Assembly: GCA_002205965.3 (NCBI GenBank)
Contig: NADL03000762.1
Location: 124,001 to 188,000, forward strand
Source of the DNA: Kappaphycus alvarezii
Taxonomy: Eukaryota; Rhodophyta; Florideophyceae; Gigartinales; Solieriaceae
Length of the DNA: 64,000 bases
Direction of reading: 5' to 3'
Below are positions 3,701-23,783 of this stretch, piece after piece. The notes below the pieces were generated by a model. That model saw only the letters and a program-made list of their open reading frames with translations. It was not told where the DNA came from and made no database searches. Numbering within the stretch: position 1 is the stretch's first letter; the number at the start of each line of letters is the position of its first letter. A program made the position numbers and the translations under genes.

Positions 3701-6223
3701 CAGGCACAGAGATCATATTTGCATAGCAACTCAAAGAACATAAAGCTGCCCCTCTATGAGGCTGTACTGTAAATTTGTACAGACAGGGGATATTTTGTCA
3801 GTATTTTCGGTACAAATATTACGTTAGGGCATATCTTAATATCTCTGTGTTTGTATTCTGGCAATGAAACTTTACATTTGGAAATTGAAATGCCAGTTCC
3901 AGAGGTTTCCAGTACATACTATGAAACGTACCTACGGATTGACAGGCGTAATAGATGCTTGCCGTATGATATTGGCCTAGAGAAGAAATTAGAAGTAAAT
4001 GATTAGTCGTTACGGTTTAATACATATTTTCTTTCAATTCGAATATTTGGCTCATTGCTTCTATAGGAGAGCTTGACGTCTGCAATAAATGGCAAGTATC
4101 AAAACATTTTGTGCAAAAGTTTGAAGGCAACTCCTTGACAATTCATTTGATGCTATTAGCCTTCGCATATCTCAACATTGAAGTTCCCAAAAACTGCATT
4201 TCCTCATTCTCCTGAGGCATTATAATCCAATTGATGCCTACGGCGAAATGACACAATGTAGGCATTGAGCCTTCGACTACAGCGGCGTTTCAAAGCAGAT
4301 GGAAAGTCTGAAAATCTCATAAGAAGTACAAATATATCTTCTTTGACTGTTTAAGTTGGGGATAAAGGTATGGATATGTCATTCAGAGATGGCACGTAAC
4401 CGCTTTCAAAAATATTTTCGCGATTTACAAGTCTGTAGTAATTACATTGTGCTTTATACTACTCTATAGTGATGTTTAATTGTCACAATTACGTTACTTG
4501 TAGGATAAATGAGTAAAAATTAAAAAATGTACTGTTTGAGCATGGATACCTACAATTATGATTCGCGTAGTTAGACTTTCGGGATGAGAATACGTACCTA
4601 TGGCGTGATTTCCCTTTAAGAGTGATCAGAGAATTAAACCATTTGATAATGTTCAAGTTGGTGCTTTAAGGCAAACTGAGGTAGCAGAAGAAGTAAGAAT
4701 AGTAGCAACAGATATCCTTGCATAAGAGACAAAAAAAGTTTCGAACAATATCCTGAAGTTAAAATAATCACAACTATAAGAAGGAGTTCGCAAAGAAACT
4801 GAAAGAAACAACAGTTAATTGGAATTTAATGACAAGACAACTGAGTACCTCAGCTTTCTGGTACGACTTACCTCCAAAGCACCATCAAAAGCCATGGCGA
4901 CTACTGAAAATTTCGGTCCATTCGCAATTGCTTCGCATATCTTTTTTATCAATAAATGATACCAGAGGACTAAATATTGGAGGGATTGAAAAAACTATGG
5001 TTATGTGAAAAAGGAAATAGAAGGATTGCCGAGAGTCACTAAAGAATTTTTGGAGTGAAGGCCCTCGAAACCTCCGAATTTATACATAATTACAAATATT
5101 TATCATCATGAGGGTGGATGATAATTAATAATCATCCGTTTGACCTACAAATAAGCGCGATATGCCACCCAGGCCATCTTTTGGTAATTAAATTGTCCGA
5201 ATGGAGCTATCATGGACAAAAAATATTTACTGAAAAACGTAAATTATATTGATACGAATGCAAGATATATGTTCTGACCAACGGTCTGTAATTATGGTGT
5301 TCGCTTAATTATATTGTGTTTATTTTGAACCTCAAGGGTGTTCCACAAAATCGGGAGTTTCATGCATCTTAGCTGGAATATGGATAAGCGAGAGCAGCGT
5401 ACTTGATAATTTGCAGCTTCGTGAAACTAATTAAAGGGAATAGGATTTACTGATGGCTGAGGGATGCACCGGCGCTATATATATTCGTCGAGCAGTAGTC
5501 CACAACGAAAATAATTCCAAAAAAACTTCCCATGGAGGATGAAGATTATCATGCTGAATAAAAATGGAAGGATAATAGTGGAAAAATTTGTCGGAAGTAC
5601 GGGCGGAGTGTGGAGCATGGCTGGCGGAAAGTGAAGATGGTCGAAGACATTTTACGTTTCCCATTTTTACCTATATGCGGCCTTTAAAGTTTTGAATGTT
5701 CGATGTCACCTACTTTGGTTTGAGGACACAAACTGGATCTGATGTATGCACTGTCTTCTGTTTGAGATGTACTAGAGTGCACACGCAGAAATTTGAGTAG
5801 AGCTTCGAGAATAGGTACGTAAAGATGCGGAGACCTCGAATGGACTGTCAGCTCAGACCTTTTGAGCTAAGGGAGGCAGTCTAGTCCTGACTTTGTATGG
5901 GTTTTACCAAATGCCTCTGTTTCTTGCCGAATGAAATATAAATAATTTACTCTCAGTTCTTCATGTTATGGTTCTGTACATCAAAAGTTTGTCCTACAGT
6001 ATCTCTATCACCCTATTGAAATGTCTTCATATTGCTCCTATGTCAGACAGCGTGTTCAAACAGTTTTCAAAATCTCCTGATTCCTTGAAATTAAGCCGAT
6101 ACCTGGTACAAAAATCTATAACGAGCCTCCAACGTAAGTTATATGAAAAATGCGTCCATGAACATGTCAAAATTGTATTTAGAGTGCACGAAAGGCAATG
6201 AAAAGAATTTAGTGGCATTTCCA

Positions 6224-6269
6224 GAGAGAAAGCTCGAATTGAGCTTGAGAGAAAGCTCGAATTGAGTTT
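6224..6269. repeat. 23-bp tandem duplication
   Basis: Two adjacent near-identical copies of a unit starting GAGAGAAAGCTCGAATTGAG, offset by 23 bp. They differ at one base near the end of the unit. Confidence 0.8.
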
Positions 6270-7495
6270 GATAGAAACCGTGAGTTTTTTTTATTCAATG
6301 GAGCCTTTTAATTCAGTAGTTGATATTTTAACAAAGTGTAAGAGCTCAATAAGTATTGCAATTGTCGAGCGGTAAAAAATGGATAAATTGATCAGAAAGC
6401 TCATCAATATCATGTCAATTCGCTGTGAAAAAATGATGGAGAGGAAAAAGGTGAAGTTCAATATTTCCATTACATTTCTATATTTCCATTACAATTACGT
6501 TTGAAATTGATCTCATTATTTGTGCGTATTCCTTCCCTAAACAATAGGACTAATGCAGGAGCCCTACCGAAACTATATGAAATAAAAGTTGTCTTTTTCT
6601 TCTTTTCATTGTCGGGGGGAAAACTTTGGCGCAACAATATTTCGCGAGTAAGGGTAAATCTGTACAGAATGTTTCGTTCATAGAAGACCAATTATCCTAT
6701 GTTCGTATTTCCTTAAATGAAATTAACATTTATATAAAAACCATTTAAATTTGACCCTTCAGTCAAACTCGCATGCAGTGTTGGTTCTATTTGTTTTTGT
6801 GAAAGTTATCTTTCAATCCGTCTACTAATTTCTCCCAGACCTTCAAATCACTGATCGACCCTCTTTTCGTTCCCTCTACACATTGTTTACCCTCTAAGAG
6901 TATCGTTGTCTAATCTGAAAGCCATTCGGCCAATATGACCATTGCAAGCTCGTGGTAAGAAGCGACGCATCGCTTATACCTCTTCCAGAAGAAGTCGCTT
7001 GATATTGTGGCATTATCGCTCTCGCCCACGCGTGGGGCTCAAGTTGGATGGTTAACTTTTTCAAAGCATGACATAGAGCAATAACAAACGATAAGGATTC
7101 CGTGGGGTGAACTGCACGAACGGAATTGATGAGAGAGACCAGGGTCGACGAATGGCGAGTAGCTCCAGCTTTATTCTCGTTGAAGTACTGAACTAACTAT
7201 TGCTTTTCTCCGAGAGTATGGAAAAGCCATACGCCTGCAGCACATTTTTTATACTCACCAACGGATCAGGGGACGCCTCGACGGAGATGCCGGAGGTTTA
7301 CGAGTAAACACTGTAAGAAATGACATTAATTTCCAAATAATAGATTACCCAAAAATGTCCTCTCTTTGTAAGCAGCTGTTGTAGTTTCAGATATGGTACT
7401 GTAATACAATGTATTTTAATGGTGGTAACTTAGTATTCCATATCTCTAAATGCTTAAAGTAAAGTGTAGAAAACGGGAAAAATTTGCACCAAATG

Positions 7496-16760: not shown

Positions 16761-16998
16761 TGAAAATGCTTGTTTCTGTTTCCTCTTCCTTTTTCTTTTT
16801 TTTTCGGCCAAGGGGAACCTGCCTCTCGTTCCCCGGACTCCGACAGCCCTAGCGTCATCTTATAGGGGCGGCCGGTCCGGGATTTCTACTCATGAACGTG
16901 CAAGTACAGTGTACACTACTACTGTACACTGTACGAGCACACCGGACCAATCAACTAGCGACCCTAACCGTCGCGCGACACAAAGATCGCGCGACACA
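16761..16998 (-). repeat. 3' LTR of the gypsy element
   Basis: Begins TGAAAATGCTTGTTTCTG on the plus strand and matches 23582-23783 through CTACTCATGAACGTGCAAGT and CCGTCGCGCGACACAAA. It ends GCGACACA, so it has TG...CA ends. It is followed directly by seven C (16999-17005), which on the element's strand is a G-run suitable as polypurine tract. The two LTRs differ by several indels, so the element is old. Confidence 0.75.
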
Positions 16999-17514: not shown

Positions 17515-18773
17515 GCTCGAACAAAGCAGCTTGCTCGTTTGAGCACCGGTGGCCGTGCACCTCGCAAGAACATCGCCACTAAGGCAGCGCGAGCCGCCCG
17601 CGGCGCAAAGGGCCTCCTCCTGTGGCTAGGGCGAATTTGATGCGGTTGTTGTCGGAGCGTTTCGACATCAGGAAGGTGCTTTTCCTCGGCAGGGAGGAGC
17701 GGAACCCTTTCGTCATCCACACCGACGCCTGTGGAATACATACATACCGCGTCTATCGTCAGGAGTTCCTCAATCTCTTCGGGACCCACATCACAGACTA
17801 TATGACTCACTGCAATGGTGACAAAGTCACGCGGGAGGATGCTTTTCAACTCGGTCTCACGGAATCCCAGCACGATCGGCGCTTTTGCGATCGATTACAG
17901 GAAGAGGATTGGATGATCAGCACGGTCCGCTGGACGACGACACCCAGACTTATAGAGCAGTCGACACGGAAACGAGAGAGGAGCTTTCGGTTTTGCTCTA
18001 CACTCTCGCGTTTTCCGGCCCCCAAGAGCCAGGCGGTCACTCCATCTCTCGTCAGCCCCGGTTCTCTTTGGGGTGTAAAGGCCGACTCAGTGCTGTGTCG
18101 AGCGTCCACAGGTGGTTTCAAATTCATCCAGGTCGTCGTCTTCAGTTGTCATCAGTTCGTTCCAGGGAGCCCCGTGCTTCCCCTGATTCCTCTTGGCCTT
18201 TCCTCGCACTGATGTGTTATTCCGTGAAGATACTGACTTATGCATCGGTTTCTTCATCTCCAACGCCCTCTGGCAGTTGGGTGCCCCTTCCGTCGCAAGA
18301 GAGTGGTTGGAGTACTATGAGGGTAACGATCGAGCTTTGAAGGCCGATGTCACACGTCGGGGTCGCAGCAGGAGCCTGAGGGACTCCTAGAAGCATGCGC
18401 CTCTACGCTCGTTCATTCTCCATCAAATCTTCCGTCTCAACCCAGGTATCAAGAGACCTTGGCTTTTCCTAGTTGTGTCTACGTCGTGACGATCCAGGGT
18501 TCCCATGGTGTCCTTCACTGCGTCACTATGAACACCGATACGGGCCAGATATGGGACCCGTGTGAGCGCTTTGCCTTGGAGCTCTCCTCTCAAGCTTTCC
18601 GAGAATGCGTCTGTAATAATTCTACATTGATTTCTGTCCTAGAGGTCCGGAAGGAACCGCTCGCTACTGCAGGAAAGCACAGGAAGCGGCGCCCTGGTCG
18701 CAACTCCTTGTCCGTTCGGAAGCACGAGAGGAGGATTAGGGAAAACCAGGGAAGCAGCAGCGCCGCTCCTTAG
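17515..18773 (+). pseudogene. Histone H3-tail-like protein with possible cysteine-protease-like domain, antisense inside the gypsy element
   Basis: The N-terminus reads ARTKQLARLSTGGRAPRKNI and then ATKAARAARGAKG. It matches H3 residues 1-26 at 21 positions, keeping K4, S10, K18 and K23 but with K9 changed to Leu and K14 to Arg. The codon before it is ATA, where ATG would be expected. Alternatively, the pyrimidine-rich TTCTTTCCAATAG before it could be a splice acceptor. The H3 fold does not follow. After a one-base shift near 17610 comes VARANLMRLLSERFDIRKVL and FVIHTDACGIHTYRVYRQEF. Later frames give TDLCIGFFISNALWQLGAPS and VVTIQGSHGVLHCVTMNTDT with GQIWDPCE, an arrangement of Cys, then His, then Asp that could be papain-like (tentative). 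Four frame changes are needed. It ends convergent with the gypsy pol, 157 bp away. No transfer from a real H3 gene can be excluded. Confidence 0.6.
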
Positions 18774-18930: not shown

Positions 18931-19743
18931 TTAGTTGAATAAATGGGTCGATTTCTTCTGATACGGGACAATCCTGCGCGCGTGAATTGCCTTCCTCGTA
19001 ACACAGCCGGTGGAGGAAAGTAACTCGTAGCGAGGGTGGTTCGCCTTCGTCACCCTGCACAGTCCATAGAAATACGAGTCGAAGGCCGGCCAGTTGCGCC
19101 CCTTGTTGAAGGTCGTACCGTGTGCTACCAACACTTCATCTCCAACTTCGAACTTCCTGACTTTTTCTTTGGTCTTGCGGGGTTCGCTAGTCTTCTCCAC
19201 CACGCTAGCCCGCATTCCCTGATCGGCTAAGGTCTCTATAAGCCGATGATGGGGGCCGGCATCACTGAGAAATGCTACCAAATCACTGGCCAGCATCCTC
19301 AGATTAATTCCATTCATCACTCGAAAAGGATAGGGGGCGTCGCTGCCGTCGCGTCTGCGGTAACCATATAGGACTTTGGGGAGGGCTTCAGCCCAGTCTG
19401 CCCCACCGCGGACGATCGTCCTGTTGAGCGGGTGCTTGATAGTTCCCATCATCCGCTCCGCGCGACCGTTTGCCATCGGGGCGTAAGCAAGCACCGCCTT
19501 CCACTCGACTCCCTTCTCTTTCATGTAATCTTCTACCGATCCCGCCATAAACGCAGTTGCGTTGTCCGAAACAATTCTCTTCAGCGGCCCGAACGGTGAT
19601 ATTATCTCTTCCTCGATGAACCTCATCACCGTATCGGCCGTAGAATCCGTCGTGGCTCACGCTATGGGCCACACTGTCATGTGTTCCACCGCGATGAGAA
19701 TAAATTTTTTCCCAGTCTTCGTGGTCTTGAAGGGTCCAGCAAA
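18931..19743 (-). pseudogene. Ty3/gypsy integrase core and C-terminus
   Basis: Reads GPLKRIVSDNATAF (second catalytic Asp), YAPMANGRAERMMGTIKH (catalytic Glu in GRAER) and, near the end, FEVGDEVLVAHGTTFNKGRNW, as expected of a chromatin-independent integrase tail. It ends KKSTHLFN and a stop at 18931. Just upstream (19630-19743) the frame continues to read like integrase (FAGPFKTTKTGKKFILIAVE), but a TAA sits where the first catalytic Asp is expected. No chromodomain is visible. Confidence 0.85.
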
Positions 19744-21645
19744 TTACATCGAGAAGGTCTCAAAGAGTCCAGTAACGGGAGCTCTCAAACTCGAGTGATA
19801 CGTCGGCAACCTTCTCGCATACTGACACGCATCGCAGCTTTTCACATACTCTGTGACATCACGGTACAACCCAGGCCACCAGAATCGGTCTCTCACGAAC
19901 TTTCTTGTCAAACCGACGTCCCAGAGGCCAATATCATCATGAAAGGCGGCCATTATCTCCAAGCGTTGACCGATCGGAGGCACGACACGGAGCCCGTCTT
20001 TCTCAAGACGAAAAAGGGTGTCGTTCCAGAGCATGAAACTTTTTGCGCTCCGTCTGACTGCGATCCTATTCTTCGGGTCGGATTCTTGAACCATTTCTCC
20101 GGCTAGGAACCGTGCTACATCTAGCAAGTGCGATTCCAAACCGTGCAACTTTGGGTCTACCCAATCCACTGTCGCCACTAATCCTTCTGTTATGTTTTCA
20201 TCGTTTCTTCTTCGTTCGTTCTTGTTAGGTCTTCGAGATAGATATCCGGCCGCCCCATTCGCCAGTACCATACGATACTTGATCTCGAAGTCGTATTCAG
20301 CCATCAAATCCATCCACCTTGCCAACCGCCCGTGAATATCTTTCTTCTTGAACGCGGTTTGAAGGGCTTGATGATCCTTATAGACAACGAAGGGCTTGCC
20401 AGACAGAAGGTATACTCGAAAATTCTTAAGAACGAAAACCACGGCGAGTGTTTCTCGTTCGCTCGTGGAGTAGCGGCGCTCCTGGTCCGTTATCGTCCGA
20501 GAAGCGAACTGAACAGGGTGTATTTTCCCGTCTTCTTTCTTCTGCGAGAGAAAAAGCCCAAGGGCTGCCGAAGAGGCGTCCGTCTCCACCAAGAAAGGAG
20601 AATTGAAATCCGGAAACGCCAATACTGGGGGGTTAGTCAGTTTCCCCTTCAAGTATTCGAAGACCTCTTGCATCTCCAGAGTCCACTCGAAAGCCTTCCT
20701 GACCGACGTCGCAGCGTGCAACACTGCTGAACTGTCGGCAAAACACCTTATGAACCATCGGTAGTACCCCGAGAGTCCAAGAAAACTCCTGAGTTCTGTC
20801 ACGTTTTCCGGCACCGGAGCTTCCACAATATTTCTAATCTTGTCGGGATCCACCTTTACATCACTTGAATTAACGATGTGACGAAGCAGCTTCACGTCCG
20901 ATTGAGCAAAGATGCATTTGGTAACCTTCAGCTTGAGCTTCGATTCTTTGATCCTCCTAAACACTTCCTTGCAGTGAGCTATGTGTTCATCCAATATCTT
21001 CGAGAAGATGAAAACGTTGTCCACATAAATCATAGCAAACGGCAACCCGTGAAGGACCTCATCCATAATCGTTTGAAATTTCGCTGGAGCATTCATGAGT
21101 CCAAACGGCATCACCTCAGACTTGTATGTTCCATATTGAGAGAAAAAGGTCGTCTTTTCTTTGCAAGTTTCAGACATCCTTACCTGCTAGTACCCTGTGT
21201 AAAGGTCCAATGTTGTGAAGAACTCTGCGCCAGAGAGTTCGTCGAAGATTTCTTCTATTTTCGGTAACGGCCAGCGGTCTGGTTTCACCACTCTCTTCAA
21301 CTGGCGGTAATCGACGCAGAACCGGGGCCTTCCGTCTTTCTTCGTGGCTATCACGACCGGAAAGGACCAGGCGGACCTTGACGGCGTAATGATTACAGCT
21401 TCCAATAATTCCTTCACTTCTTTCTTTACGACTTCATTATGCCTCGGCGGCATTCGGCGGGCCTTCGAATGTATCGGCGTCTTATCCGTCAACTCGAAAG
21501 AATGTACCACCGGCACATGAGCAGGCTCCAGGTCGTGAATGTCCCAGGCTATAACATCTGTTTCCTTGAGAGCTTTCGACAGCTCCTTCTGATTCTTCTC
21601 TTCGAGATGGTACAGCTTCGAGGCCAATGTAGCCGAGCGGTCCAC
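19744..21645 (-). pseudogene. Ty3/gypsy reverse transcriptase, RNase H and integrase zinc-binding region
   Basis: RT blocks are clear: AWSFPVVIATKKDGRPRFCV, DYRQLKRVVKPDRWPLPKIE, MPFGLMNAPAKFQTIMDEVL and AMIYVDNVFIFSK. The catalytic box is YVDN instead of YVDD. RNase H follows (FLVETDASSAALG, FASRTITDQERRYSTSERET), but the late Asp of the usual ADxLSR motif is Gly (AAGYLSRRP). Then comes the integrase HHCC region (AAFHDDIGLWDVGLTRKFVR and SCDACQYAR), with one His apparently replaced by Leu. A TAG at 21187-21189 interrupts LDLYTGY*QVRM, where Trp is usual. A further TAG lies upstream near 21680. This frame differs from gag-protease by one shift near 21800. Confidence 0.9.
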
Positions 21646-21725: not shown

Positions 21726-22664
21726 CTAAGACCAGGTCTTGTTCGGTATCCGATCCACCATCGCTTTCGCTAGACGATGAGAAAGGATGGAGAGATTCCT
21801 CATCGTCTGAACCTTTTGGGAAGTGAAGTCCTCACTATCCGTCTGAGCCCCATTGATTCTGGACGGCTCGTTGAATGGCAACACAACCTCTTCATCTCCA
21901 ATAAACAAAATGACTTGTTGGAGGGCATAATCGATGCGAGTCTGGAGGGCCTCCAAAGTCGGGCCTCTAACAATAACGTTAAACGGGGCATTTTTGACTA
22001 CCAGGAACTCAAGATGCACAACCATTGACCCATAAGACACCGGAACTCCTTTGAGACAACTAAGAACCTCGGCGACAGTTCCGTCTGCTACCGTCACCTG
22101 ACGACCGGTTTCCGCCGGGGTGAGGGCAAGCCTTTTGCAGAGGTCCCAAGAGATCAGGTTAGGAACTGCACCCGTGTCCAAAAGGGCCTGAGTCTCCGTT
22201 CCATACAACTTCACGGCTACTACCTTGAGTCGGCGTGGACCTCCCGAAGACTTGACCATCGACGCCTGTATAACCGGTAACTTCTTGGATAAAAATATCC
22301 TTAAAACATTTCTGTCCTCCTCGGCATCCCCGCACAATAGCTGCCTGAAATTCATTCCTGTAGCAGCGGAAGCCAGTTCAGCGATCACGTTATATTTTCC
22401 TACATGATCCTGGAGTCCACCGGATTTCTTCTTCGATTTGCGGTTTCCTCTCTTATTCCTCTTCCTTGGGACGGGAGCCATCATCGGCGGACGATTACCA
22501 GGGGCCTTGTTCAAGATGGCATCAAGATACATCAAGTTTTCCCTCCGCTGTTTCGGGAGGGCCTGCCCGTCCGCACTTCTCTTCGCGGCGGCAACCACGC
22601 CCTTTTTGCGAGATTCCTGAACTACGGCGACCTTGTCATCGTCCTTCGGCTTCTTCATTTTCAA
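21726..22664 (-). pseudogene. Ty3/gypsy protease region
   Basis: A Lys/Arg-rich linker (KKPKDDDKVAVVQESRKKGV) is followed by VKLYGTETQALLDTGAVPNL, the retropepsin-type D-T-G-A active site, and FNVIVRGPTLEALQTRIDYA, resembling the usual hydrophobic-hydrophobic-G end of the fold. It is in the same frame as gag, separated only by a TGA at 22671-22673. After QKVQT near 21805 the natural reading moves to another frame (SSSSESDGGSDTEQDLVLAI), which leads on to RT. Confidence 0.8.
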
Positions 22665-22670
22665 TTCTTC

Positions 22671-23558
22671 TCAAGACTCAGACCGGGCCCTAGCAACTCC
22701 TCCTCGCTGATCATCACCACGAGGGTTCTTGGACCAGCATGTTGCTTCCGAATGCCCTCTCCTCCCACAAATTGTACAGCGCGTATATAGATGAGGATTA
22801 TGCGGGCAACGGCTCGCTCCGTGGCCCTTCGGGTTGCAATAGCTGCAAAAATAATCCGCATCCGTCTTCATCTGCGGCGTCGTTTCGTCGAATTGCTTCT
22901 TCACGAACAAAGATAGTTCAGCAAATTGGTCTGCCAACTTATCCACCTTATTTTCCAGATGCTGAGAAGTACGAGCATACGGCCTTTGGAGGATGTTCTT
23001 CGGCGCTTCATTCGACGATGATATTTCACTTTCTTCCCCGTAGAACGTCTTCTTTCCACTAACAAAGTCTGTGATTGCCTCCTTGAGCCCCTTATAGTAC
23101 GAATGGGCTCTAAACACTAAGAACTGCGCCATGTCTTGATCTTCTGCCACTGATTTCCGAAGGAGGCCAAACGAGGCGGTATCGTTGAATCCAACTCTCC
23201 TGTATAGAGCGTCCAACTGCGCCAGGGAGCCCACTACATCCTTCGGGTCCAACCTAGCGTTGATAGCCTTCTGCAAGTCTTCTTCCGGCGTCGGGGTCTT
23301 CCTAAACTCCTCGATGAGCTTGGCCTTAACGATCGAATAGTTCTTCGCCTCCTCCACCAACGCTCCGTCTCTCTCGAAAGCCTCGTAGAAACGCTCAAAC
23401 GCCGCGCCTTCGAGGTGGCAAAGGATCTGGAGCGCCTTTTTCTCGTCGTTTTTACCGCGCATGGCTACATTCTCGTACGCGAAAAGGAAGCGCGCGACTT
23501 CGGAAGATGGGGAACCGTTGAATGAAACGTCGGGTCTAAGGTAATCGTTCATGTCCAT
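22671..23558 (-). pseudogene. Ty3/gypsy gag with two zinc knuckles
   Basis: I chose the ATG at 23558 (MDMNDYLRPDVSFNGSP), because the first in-frame ATG overlaps the primer-binding site. The helical capsid-like part includes RFLFAYENVAMRGKNDEKKA, LQILCHLEGAAFERFYEAF and LDPKDVVGSLAQLDALYRRV. Two CX2CX4HX4C zinc knuckles follow (CSYCNPKGHGASRC and CTICGRRGHSEATC). The frame ends in a TGA after RARSES and continues as protease. The stop may be mutational or a readthrough stop; one copy cannot decide. Confidence 0.85.
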
Positions 23559-23564
23559 AGTCGA

Positions 23565-23581
23565 CCTTGGATGCGGTACCA
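23565..23581 (-). other. Primer-binding site of the gypsy element
   Basis: On the element's strand TGGTACCGCATCCAAGG starts immediately after the LTR end TTTTCA. A TGG start complements the CCA end of a tRNA, and TGGTA followed by a CGC word is similar to initiator-Met primer sites of other LTR elements. The tRNA identity is inference. Confidence 0.75.
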
Positions 23582-23783
23582 TGAAAATGCTTGTTTCTGT
23601 TTACTCTCTCTCTCTCTGCTGTTTAGGCCAAGCTGAACCTGCCTCTCATCCCCCCGGACTCCGGCAGCCCTCGCGTCATATTATAGGGGCAGCAGGGCCG
23701 GGGTTTCTACTCATGAACGTGCAAGTTAATGTACACTACTACTGTACACGTTGCGAGCAGCCGTCGCGCGACACAAAAATCGC
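23582..23783 (-). repeat. 5' LTR of the gypsy element (outer end uncertain)
   Basis: Direct repeat of 16761-16989, beginning TGAAAATGCTTGTTTCTG next to the primer-binding site. Homology stops at 23783, about 8-9 bp before the end of the other copy. An alternative end is 23940, where ...TTATACA is followed by GTGGTC, the same six bases that precede the left LTR. That would require the left LTR to have lost about 150 bp. Confidence 0.7.

Follow-up and report, generated by a model that had tools for sequence, protein, structure and literature searches.

An antisense accessory gene of Ty3/gypsy retrotransposons in the red alga Kappaphycus alvarezii with a probable histone H3 tail mimic at its N-terminus

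A large and old clade of Ty3/gypsy retrotransposons in Kappaphycus alvarezii carries an antisense accessory gene whose product opens with a sequence closely copying the histone H3 tail, and a decayed copy of this gene lies in the window, the stretch of 64,000 nucleotides of contig NADL03000762.1 that was analysed. Conservation of the tail across families of the element, at an unvarying gene position, makes it very probable that the tail is a selected mimic of H3.

The Ty3/gypsy element in the window is on the minus strand, has the order gag-PR-RT-RH-INT and is bounded by a pair of LTRs that align with many mismatches and gaps (Table 1). A search of its RT part against viral contigs was unproductive. 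The antisense gene region extends on the plus strand from about 17515 to 18773, between the integrase (ending at 18931) and the 3' LTR (from 16761), which is where a previous interpretation from the letters alone (the sequence-only reading) had placed it. The first 26 codons from 17515 read ARTKQLARLSTGGRAPRKNIATKAAR, and 21 of the 26 residues are identical to H3 1-26, the same number of sites as had been counted in that reading; the H3-tail match of the window peptide, with E 1.8e-12 to itself, is far beyond chance. The sequence had been read accurately, and only the term gene has to be qualified for this copy, which is broken: its ATG is mutated to ATA (ccaataGCTCGA), the tail frame ends at a stop after 41 codons, and what follows lies in pieces in three frames, with stops. 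We class the window copy as a degenerate, dead pseudogene.

Table 1. Parts of the Ty3/gypsy element and of its antisense gene in the window.
Feature	Position	Strand	Remarks
3' LTR	16761..16990	-	about 230 bp aligned
H3-tail-like N-terminus	17515..17613	+	codons 1-33; T6L, K9L, K14R, Q19N, L20I; Ala at 27
Core segment A	17622..17921	+	other frame than tail
Core segment B	17885..18235	+	another frame
Core segment C	18190..18387	+	candidate catalytic Cys, codon 18241-18243, DLCIGFFISNALWQLG
C-terminal segment D	18375..18773	+	candidate His 18516-18518 and Asp 18555-18557 of papain-like Cys-His-Asp set; then basic end
Integrase part of pol	18931..19629	-	
RT (C-terminal half), RNase H and integrase zinc-binding domain	19744..21177	-	
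N-terminal RT part	21187..21645	-	by place and similarity to other loci; no Pfam match over cut-off
Aspartic protease part	21726..22664	-	
Gag-like frame, zinc-knuckle-like motifs	22671..23582	-	Pfam match below cut-off
5' LTR	23582..23783	-	diverged from 3' LTR; outer end unsure

The 33 tail residues were used as query against the 336-Mb genome (884 contigs), which yielded at least 150 matches (150 of 395 candidates were scored), three of the 150 being canonical host H3 genes with K4, K9, K14, K18, K23 and K27. The gene is therefore not an insertion that occurred once, in the window only, a possibility that the sequence-only reading had considered. From matches to the tail or to H3 we read 122 element tails, the window's included, after six others, which were host H3 genes or H3-like, had been excluded. 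An ATG directly precedes Ala1 in 93 of the 122, and in 25 of the remaining 29 the codon is one base away from ATG, which is why we regard the ATA of the window as a lost start codon. A splice acceptor before Ala1, considered because CCAATAG in the window resembles the end of an intron, was rejected since those 93 tails have ATG there. Long open frames occur in other copies: that of L015 has 420 aa and that of L013 474 aa, the end of the latter being shifted in frame relative to the others.

In 23 ten-kb loci, which represent seven tail families, the gene is antisense to pol without exception (20 of 20 around tail matches and 3 of 3 from divergent tail families). It lies beside the integrase in 21 of them; in L015 and L018, where the integrase is missing at this place, its neighbour is PR/gag or RT. 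Most of the other ten-kb loci also have the order PR-RT-RH-INT, some with deletions. A pair of LTRs was detected in 12 of the 23 loci (none in 11), and in all 12 the gene is located between pol and the LTR at the 3' end of pol, so that the antisense position between pol and 3' LTR, for which a check in further copies had been recommended, is borne out by strand and by LTR side. The two LTRs are 98.6% identical in L009, 98.3% in L013, 95.9% in L129 and 95.7% in L131, and 83-94% in the other eight loci; not all carrier elements are old.

The carriers are diverse in pol. Identity to the RT/RNase H of the window, taken over the best piece, is 65% for family 3, 60-61% for two loci of family 2 (46% for a third, which has four stops), 53-55% for families 6 and 7 and 42% for family 5. 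In an RT tree of 11 rows family 2 groups with families 6 and 7 (support 96/95), whereas in a tree of the accessory core (8 rows, long branches) it is nearer to families 1 and 4 than to 6 (support 81/90). This conflict over family 2 (L021, L026, L129, L131 and the window) hints at either an exchange of the gene between gypsy lineages or a convergence of tails. Four loci (L002, L004, L005 and L027) have in common one exact deletion junction, about 190 bases past the start of the tail, through which the core and the protease region are gone and the ATG and the tail remain in a frame of 112-120 aa.

Three side observations were made in this genome. Within the family 5 element L130 an open frame at 6134-6901 on the minus strand (L130:6134-6901) resembles, by eye, a Tc1/mariner-type transposase. 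Two similar divergent H3-fold genes (C660:372234-372670 and C609:1093448-1093887), 62-68% identical to H3 and each matching in two pieces, may encode centromeric H3. L064 (C600:513962-514365) is a host-like H3 with tail and fold in different frames, which would fit an H3 pseudogene, a variant with an intron or a misassembly.

The tails were sorted into families under names of our own, families 1 and 2 by script and the others by eye: family 1, ARTKQLARLSTGGRAPRKNIATKAARVARG (63 loci); family 2, ARTKQLARLSTGGKAPR(K/E)KIATKAARMSRE (32 loci); family 3, ...LARLSTGGRAPRAELATKAARTPRG (6 loci); family 4, ARTKQKASLSTGGRAPRKAIATKAARVPRP (6 loci); family 5, ARTKQTANKSTGGKAPRDQLARLAARRAAG (5 loci); family 6, AHTKQTARRSTGGRAPRLELACKAARKRPS (4 loci); and family 7, A(R/K/E)TNQTARKSTGGKPPRKQLWQKAARKTVG (3 loci). 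Three tails were assigned to none of the seven. In the following counts, in which A, V, I, L, M, F, W, C and Y are taken as hydrophobic, the 122 tails are not independent, since they form about seven families with 95 of the 122 in two, and their selection by similarity to the tail or to H3 inflates the conservation of the tail: site 4 is Lys in 110 and hydrophobic in none; site 9 is hydrophobic in 106, Lys in 10 and Arg in 5; site 14 is Lys or Arg in 109; site 18 is Lys in 77; site 23 is Lys in 111 and hydrophobic in 7; and site 27 is hydrophobic in 101, Lys in 9 and Arg in 5. It is thus the two lysines of silencing methylation that have become hydrophobic, whereas K4 is retained.

The loss of K9, which the sequence-only reading had pointed out, is found in the window (K9L) and in most other tails, and does not extend to families 5, 6 and 7, which have Lys or Arg at both 9 and 27. 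What that reading did not contain is that site 27 as well as site 9 is hydrophobic in most tails read. In family 1 site 27 is mostly Val (55 of 63), the window copy with its Ala having neither Met nor Ile there; in family 3 it is Thr or Asn. Family 2 has Met in 23, Ile in 7, Thr in 1 and Val in 1 of its 32 tails, so that 30 of 32 show Met or Ile, the H3K27M pattern; the Ile27 copies may be due to drift, because of the nine single-base variants of ATG three encode Ile. K18 is kept in 49 of 63 tails of family 1 and 19 of 32 of family 2, K23 in 58 of 63 and 32 of 32, respectively. At site 18 the 32 tails of family 2 have 19 Lys and 13 Glu, mostly as AAG and GAG, and may comprise two sublineages. 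A1, T3, K4 and Q5 are the commonest N-terminal residues in six of the seven families; family 7 has N4, family 6 has H2 and family 5 has Leu at 23.

Representatives of families 1, 2, 4 and 6 share 16-19 of the 26 tail residues (62-73%), as compared to 27-36% identity in the rest of the protein. Between them pN is 0.18-0.33 in the tail versus 0.44-0.55 in the core; the corresponding pS values are 0.63-0.94 (tail) and 0.80-0.92 (core), silent sites being saturated. Where two families have the same amino acid, they use the same codon at about the frequency expected from codon usage. In the comparison with host H3 the excess is largest for family 1 and one host gene (11 identical codons, 6.3 expected), other pairs lying below expectation. 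These values indicate that the tail has long been kept at the protein level and was not lately copied from host H3, the pattern being that of old purifying selection on the tail. A recent capture from host H3 was rejected because at silent sites the tails are approximately as close to the host genes as codon usage predicts, and for the same reason the tail is not a recently moved piece of a host H3 gene, an origin akin to one that had been envisaged before.

Within families the ratio of replacement to silent changes (N/S) in the tail is 0.50 for family 1 (2.18 expected neutrally) and 0.59 for family 2, with expected values of 2.2-2.3, these ratios being counts of single-base changes from the majority codon, uncorrected for shared ancestry and biased towards low values by the sampling on tail similarity. 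In codons 34-50, which lie outside the query, N/S is 0.56 (family 1) and 0.89 (family 2) versus 2.1-2.2 expected. As a control, 20 loci were chosen by matches to the core instead of the tail, 13 spread over the matches and 7 picked as absent from the tail list; when compared with H3, 17 of the 20 outscored every one of 300 base shuffles, a single shuffle of 300 reached or exceeded the score of L138, and L144 and L151 had no significant tail (2 of 20).

Pfam searches with the window pieces and with pieces of seven relatives gave no significant match and, in particular, no histone fold after the tail above cut-off; below it were Granin (E 0.21) and CBFD_NFYB_HMF (E 0.17). When the L015 protein was compared with the PDB, H3 was matched at E 0.001 and was the only protein among the best 60 of 125 matches; a profile of the C-terminus had no match in the PDB. 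In the aligned copies three sites in papain order are conserved, Cys244 in 19 of 21, His336 in 18 of 19 and Asp349 in 19 of 19. Loci of families 2, 5 and 6 also have the His and Asp motifs, except that L025 has lost the Asp. A single-sequence model of the last piece of the window predicts beta strands around His and Asp at a mean pLDDT of 50, too weak for a structure search. We therefore call the conserved C-terminus with its Cys-His-Asp set papain-like at the level of motifs, given the Pfam and PDB results and the pLDDT of the model. The sequence-only reading had seen no H3 fold after the tail and a possible papain-like Cys/His/Asp region, and both points extend to the family.

The initiator Met in front of Ala is normally removed, and many H3 readers depend on the free A1 that results. 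With ATG directly before Ala1 in 93 of the 122 tails, this processing would leave a free, H3-like N-terminus exposed. Intact copies would then give rise to a protein of about 420 residues that has the copied H3 tail as its free N-terminus, followed by a conserved core and by a papain-like region with Cys, His and Asp. After removal of the start Met the tail would dock on host proteins that bind H3 tails, and the hydrophobic residues 9 and 27 would occupy the lysine channel of the H3K9 and H3K27 SET methyltransferases and stay unmethylated, in the manner of H3K9M and H3K27M. Whatever the tail has bound may be cleaved by the protease-like region. For the element the net outcome would be anti-silencing. 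We consider the chances to be about even that the protein mimics a histone and counters silencing in this way, by engaging proteins that bind the H3 tail or SET methyltransferases.

H3K9M has been described to occupy the active site of G9a, and PRC2 to be inhibited by Met or Ile at position 27 and not by Lys or Arg (PMC6513997). In the red alga C. merolae H3K27me3 is reported on genes and repeats (PMC5405695) and, according to a review, on transposable elements (PMC8788455). The host genome encodes two EZH-like SET domains (53% identity) and weaker SUV39-like ones (about 40%); a Pfam search for Pre-SET gave no match and, the controls being equally silent, is uninformative. By analogy, inhibition of the K-to-M type is a tentative possibility, in which Leu and Val as substitutes for Met and Ile in the SET channel are putative only. 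That the tails are natural oncohistone-like decoys, which with a free N-terminus and hydrophobic residues at K9 and K27 (K27M and K27I included) would poison the host H3K9 and H3K27 methyltransferases, have diverged from family to family in a conflict with the host and have sometimes spread as a short tail-bearing form without the protease-like part, is conceivable and rather doubtful. Inhibition by hydrophobic residues cannot serve all families, since site 27 is Thr or Asn in family 3 and sites 9 and 27 are both Lys or Arg in families 5, 6 and 7; on account of the latter three families, a K-to-M decoy was rejected as a function common to all.

Histone importins read the H3 tail. The tail could accordingly be a borrowed signal for nuclear import or for chaperones, by which these importins would carry the protein, and perhaps the integration complex, into the nucleus in the guise of H3. 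The tail is basic (Lys or Arg at site 14 in 109 and Lys at site 23 in 111 of 122), but for import alone an exact Ala1 after ATG and the uncharged Q5, S10, T11, G12, G13 and P16, conserved over saturated silent sites, would be superfluous, the hydrophobic residues at 9 and 27 are left unexplained, and family 5 has Leu at 23; we think this explanation unlikely. To the same degree improbable is that the tail targets or recruits factors of active chromatin, such as K4 readers and acetyltransferases, and so aids integration or transcription, with the silencing enzymes uninhibited. It would account for the prevalence of A1, T3, K4 and Q5 at the free N-terminus in six families and for the retention of K18 (49/63 and 19/32) and K23 (58/63 and 32/32) in families 1 and 2, and less well for N4 in family 7 and H2 in family 6; furthermore, a link to the integrase would need additional contacts, because the gene is antisense to pol and its product a separate protein.

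The protease-like region might also be the business end of the protein, with the tail as bait or self-substrate that draws in H3-binding proteins, or the protein might clip H3 tails. The nearly invariant C244, H336 and D349 in papain order (19/21, 18/19 and 19/19) and the His/Asp motifs of families 2, 5 and 6 (L025 without Asp) are in favour of this; yet Pfam gave no significant match, the best 60 of 125 PDB matches were to H3 only, the model reached a pLDDT of just 50, and the four loci with the common deletion lose core and protease region and keep ATG and tail, which leaves a low probability for this proposal, too. That the resemblance is due to chance, or is the dead, functionless relic of a captured host H3, would fit the broken window copy and the decay of many others. 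In its simple form this is refuted, and otherwise extremely improbable, in view of tails conserved over saturated silent sites in families sharing one gene position and of carriers with LTR pairs 96-99% identical.

If the anti-silencing mimic is real, a selfish element would have arrived in evolution at the strategy of H3K27M and EZHIP, and would apply it to both silencing sites of H3 simultaneously, and the counteraction of Polycomb and H3K9 silencing by a retrotransposon would become directly testable. The families would then constitute a natural, selection-sorted set of H3-tail variants, in which the residues for docking can be separated from those for silencing. Even with a wrong mechanism, a 26-residue H3 tail at the exact N-terminus, retained by a gypsy clade, is unusual. 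Titles and the openings of abstracts, mostly from outside subscription journals, contained no earlier report of an H3 tail encoded by a transposon, and the fungal mobile-element precedent mentioned in the sequence-only reading was not found in the literature searched.

In mammals EZHIP is described as a K27M mimic (PMC6513997; PMC12713659). EZHIP (CXORF67) and the H3K27M oncohistones resemble the present tails in that an H3K27M-like peptide stands outside a normal histone with Met or Ile at K27, family 2 keeping A-R-M-S. EZHIP, as far as described in these sources, is a host gene of placental mammals with a K27M-like motif, whereas here a retrotransposon carries the whole N-terminal tail with K9 changed as well; the commonest family has Val at 27, and inhibition of PRC2 would be by analogy only.

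Antisense ORFs between pol and 3' LTR have been reported for plant gypsy elements, those of Retand being mostly TRP28 (PF04195) (PMC11963269). Retand, Grande and RIRE2 share with the K. alvarezii element an antisense accessory ORF in this position that most copies retain; in contrast, the available part of that report describes these ORFs without mention of an H3 tail (PMC11963269), and TRP28 (PF04195) was not matched by the K. alvarezii gene in the Pfam searches with window pieces and pieces of seven relatives.

Counter-silencing encoded by a transposon is represented by the VANC proteins of Arabidopsis VANDAL transposons, which, unlike the protein proposed here, are described as sequence-specific anti-silencing proteins, the descriptions at hand mentioning no histone mimicry. 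The domesticated plant transposase that opposes Polycomb we take to be ALP1. It is reported to antagonise Polycomb silencing and to be an accessory part of PRC2 (PMC4671723). ALP1 is thus likewise a transposon-derived protein opposing Polycomb silencing, but a host gene that arose from a transposase, and in the accessible portion of its description an H3 tail is not mentioned. Influenza NS1 is a viral histone mimic with a few residues of the H3 tail at its C-terminus; it too is a parasite protein that copies part of the H3 tail, the copy being a few C-terminal residues there versus 26 at a free N-terminus here. Histone mimicry and antisense accessory genes of gypsy elements are each known separately, and the novelty of the K. 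alvarezii gene is that the two are joined.
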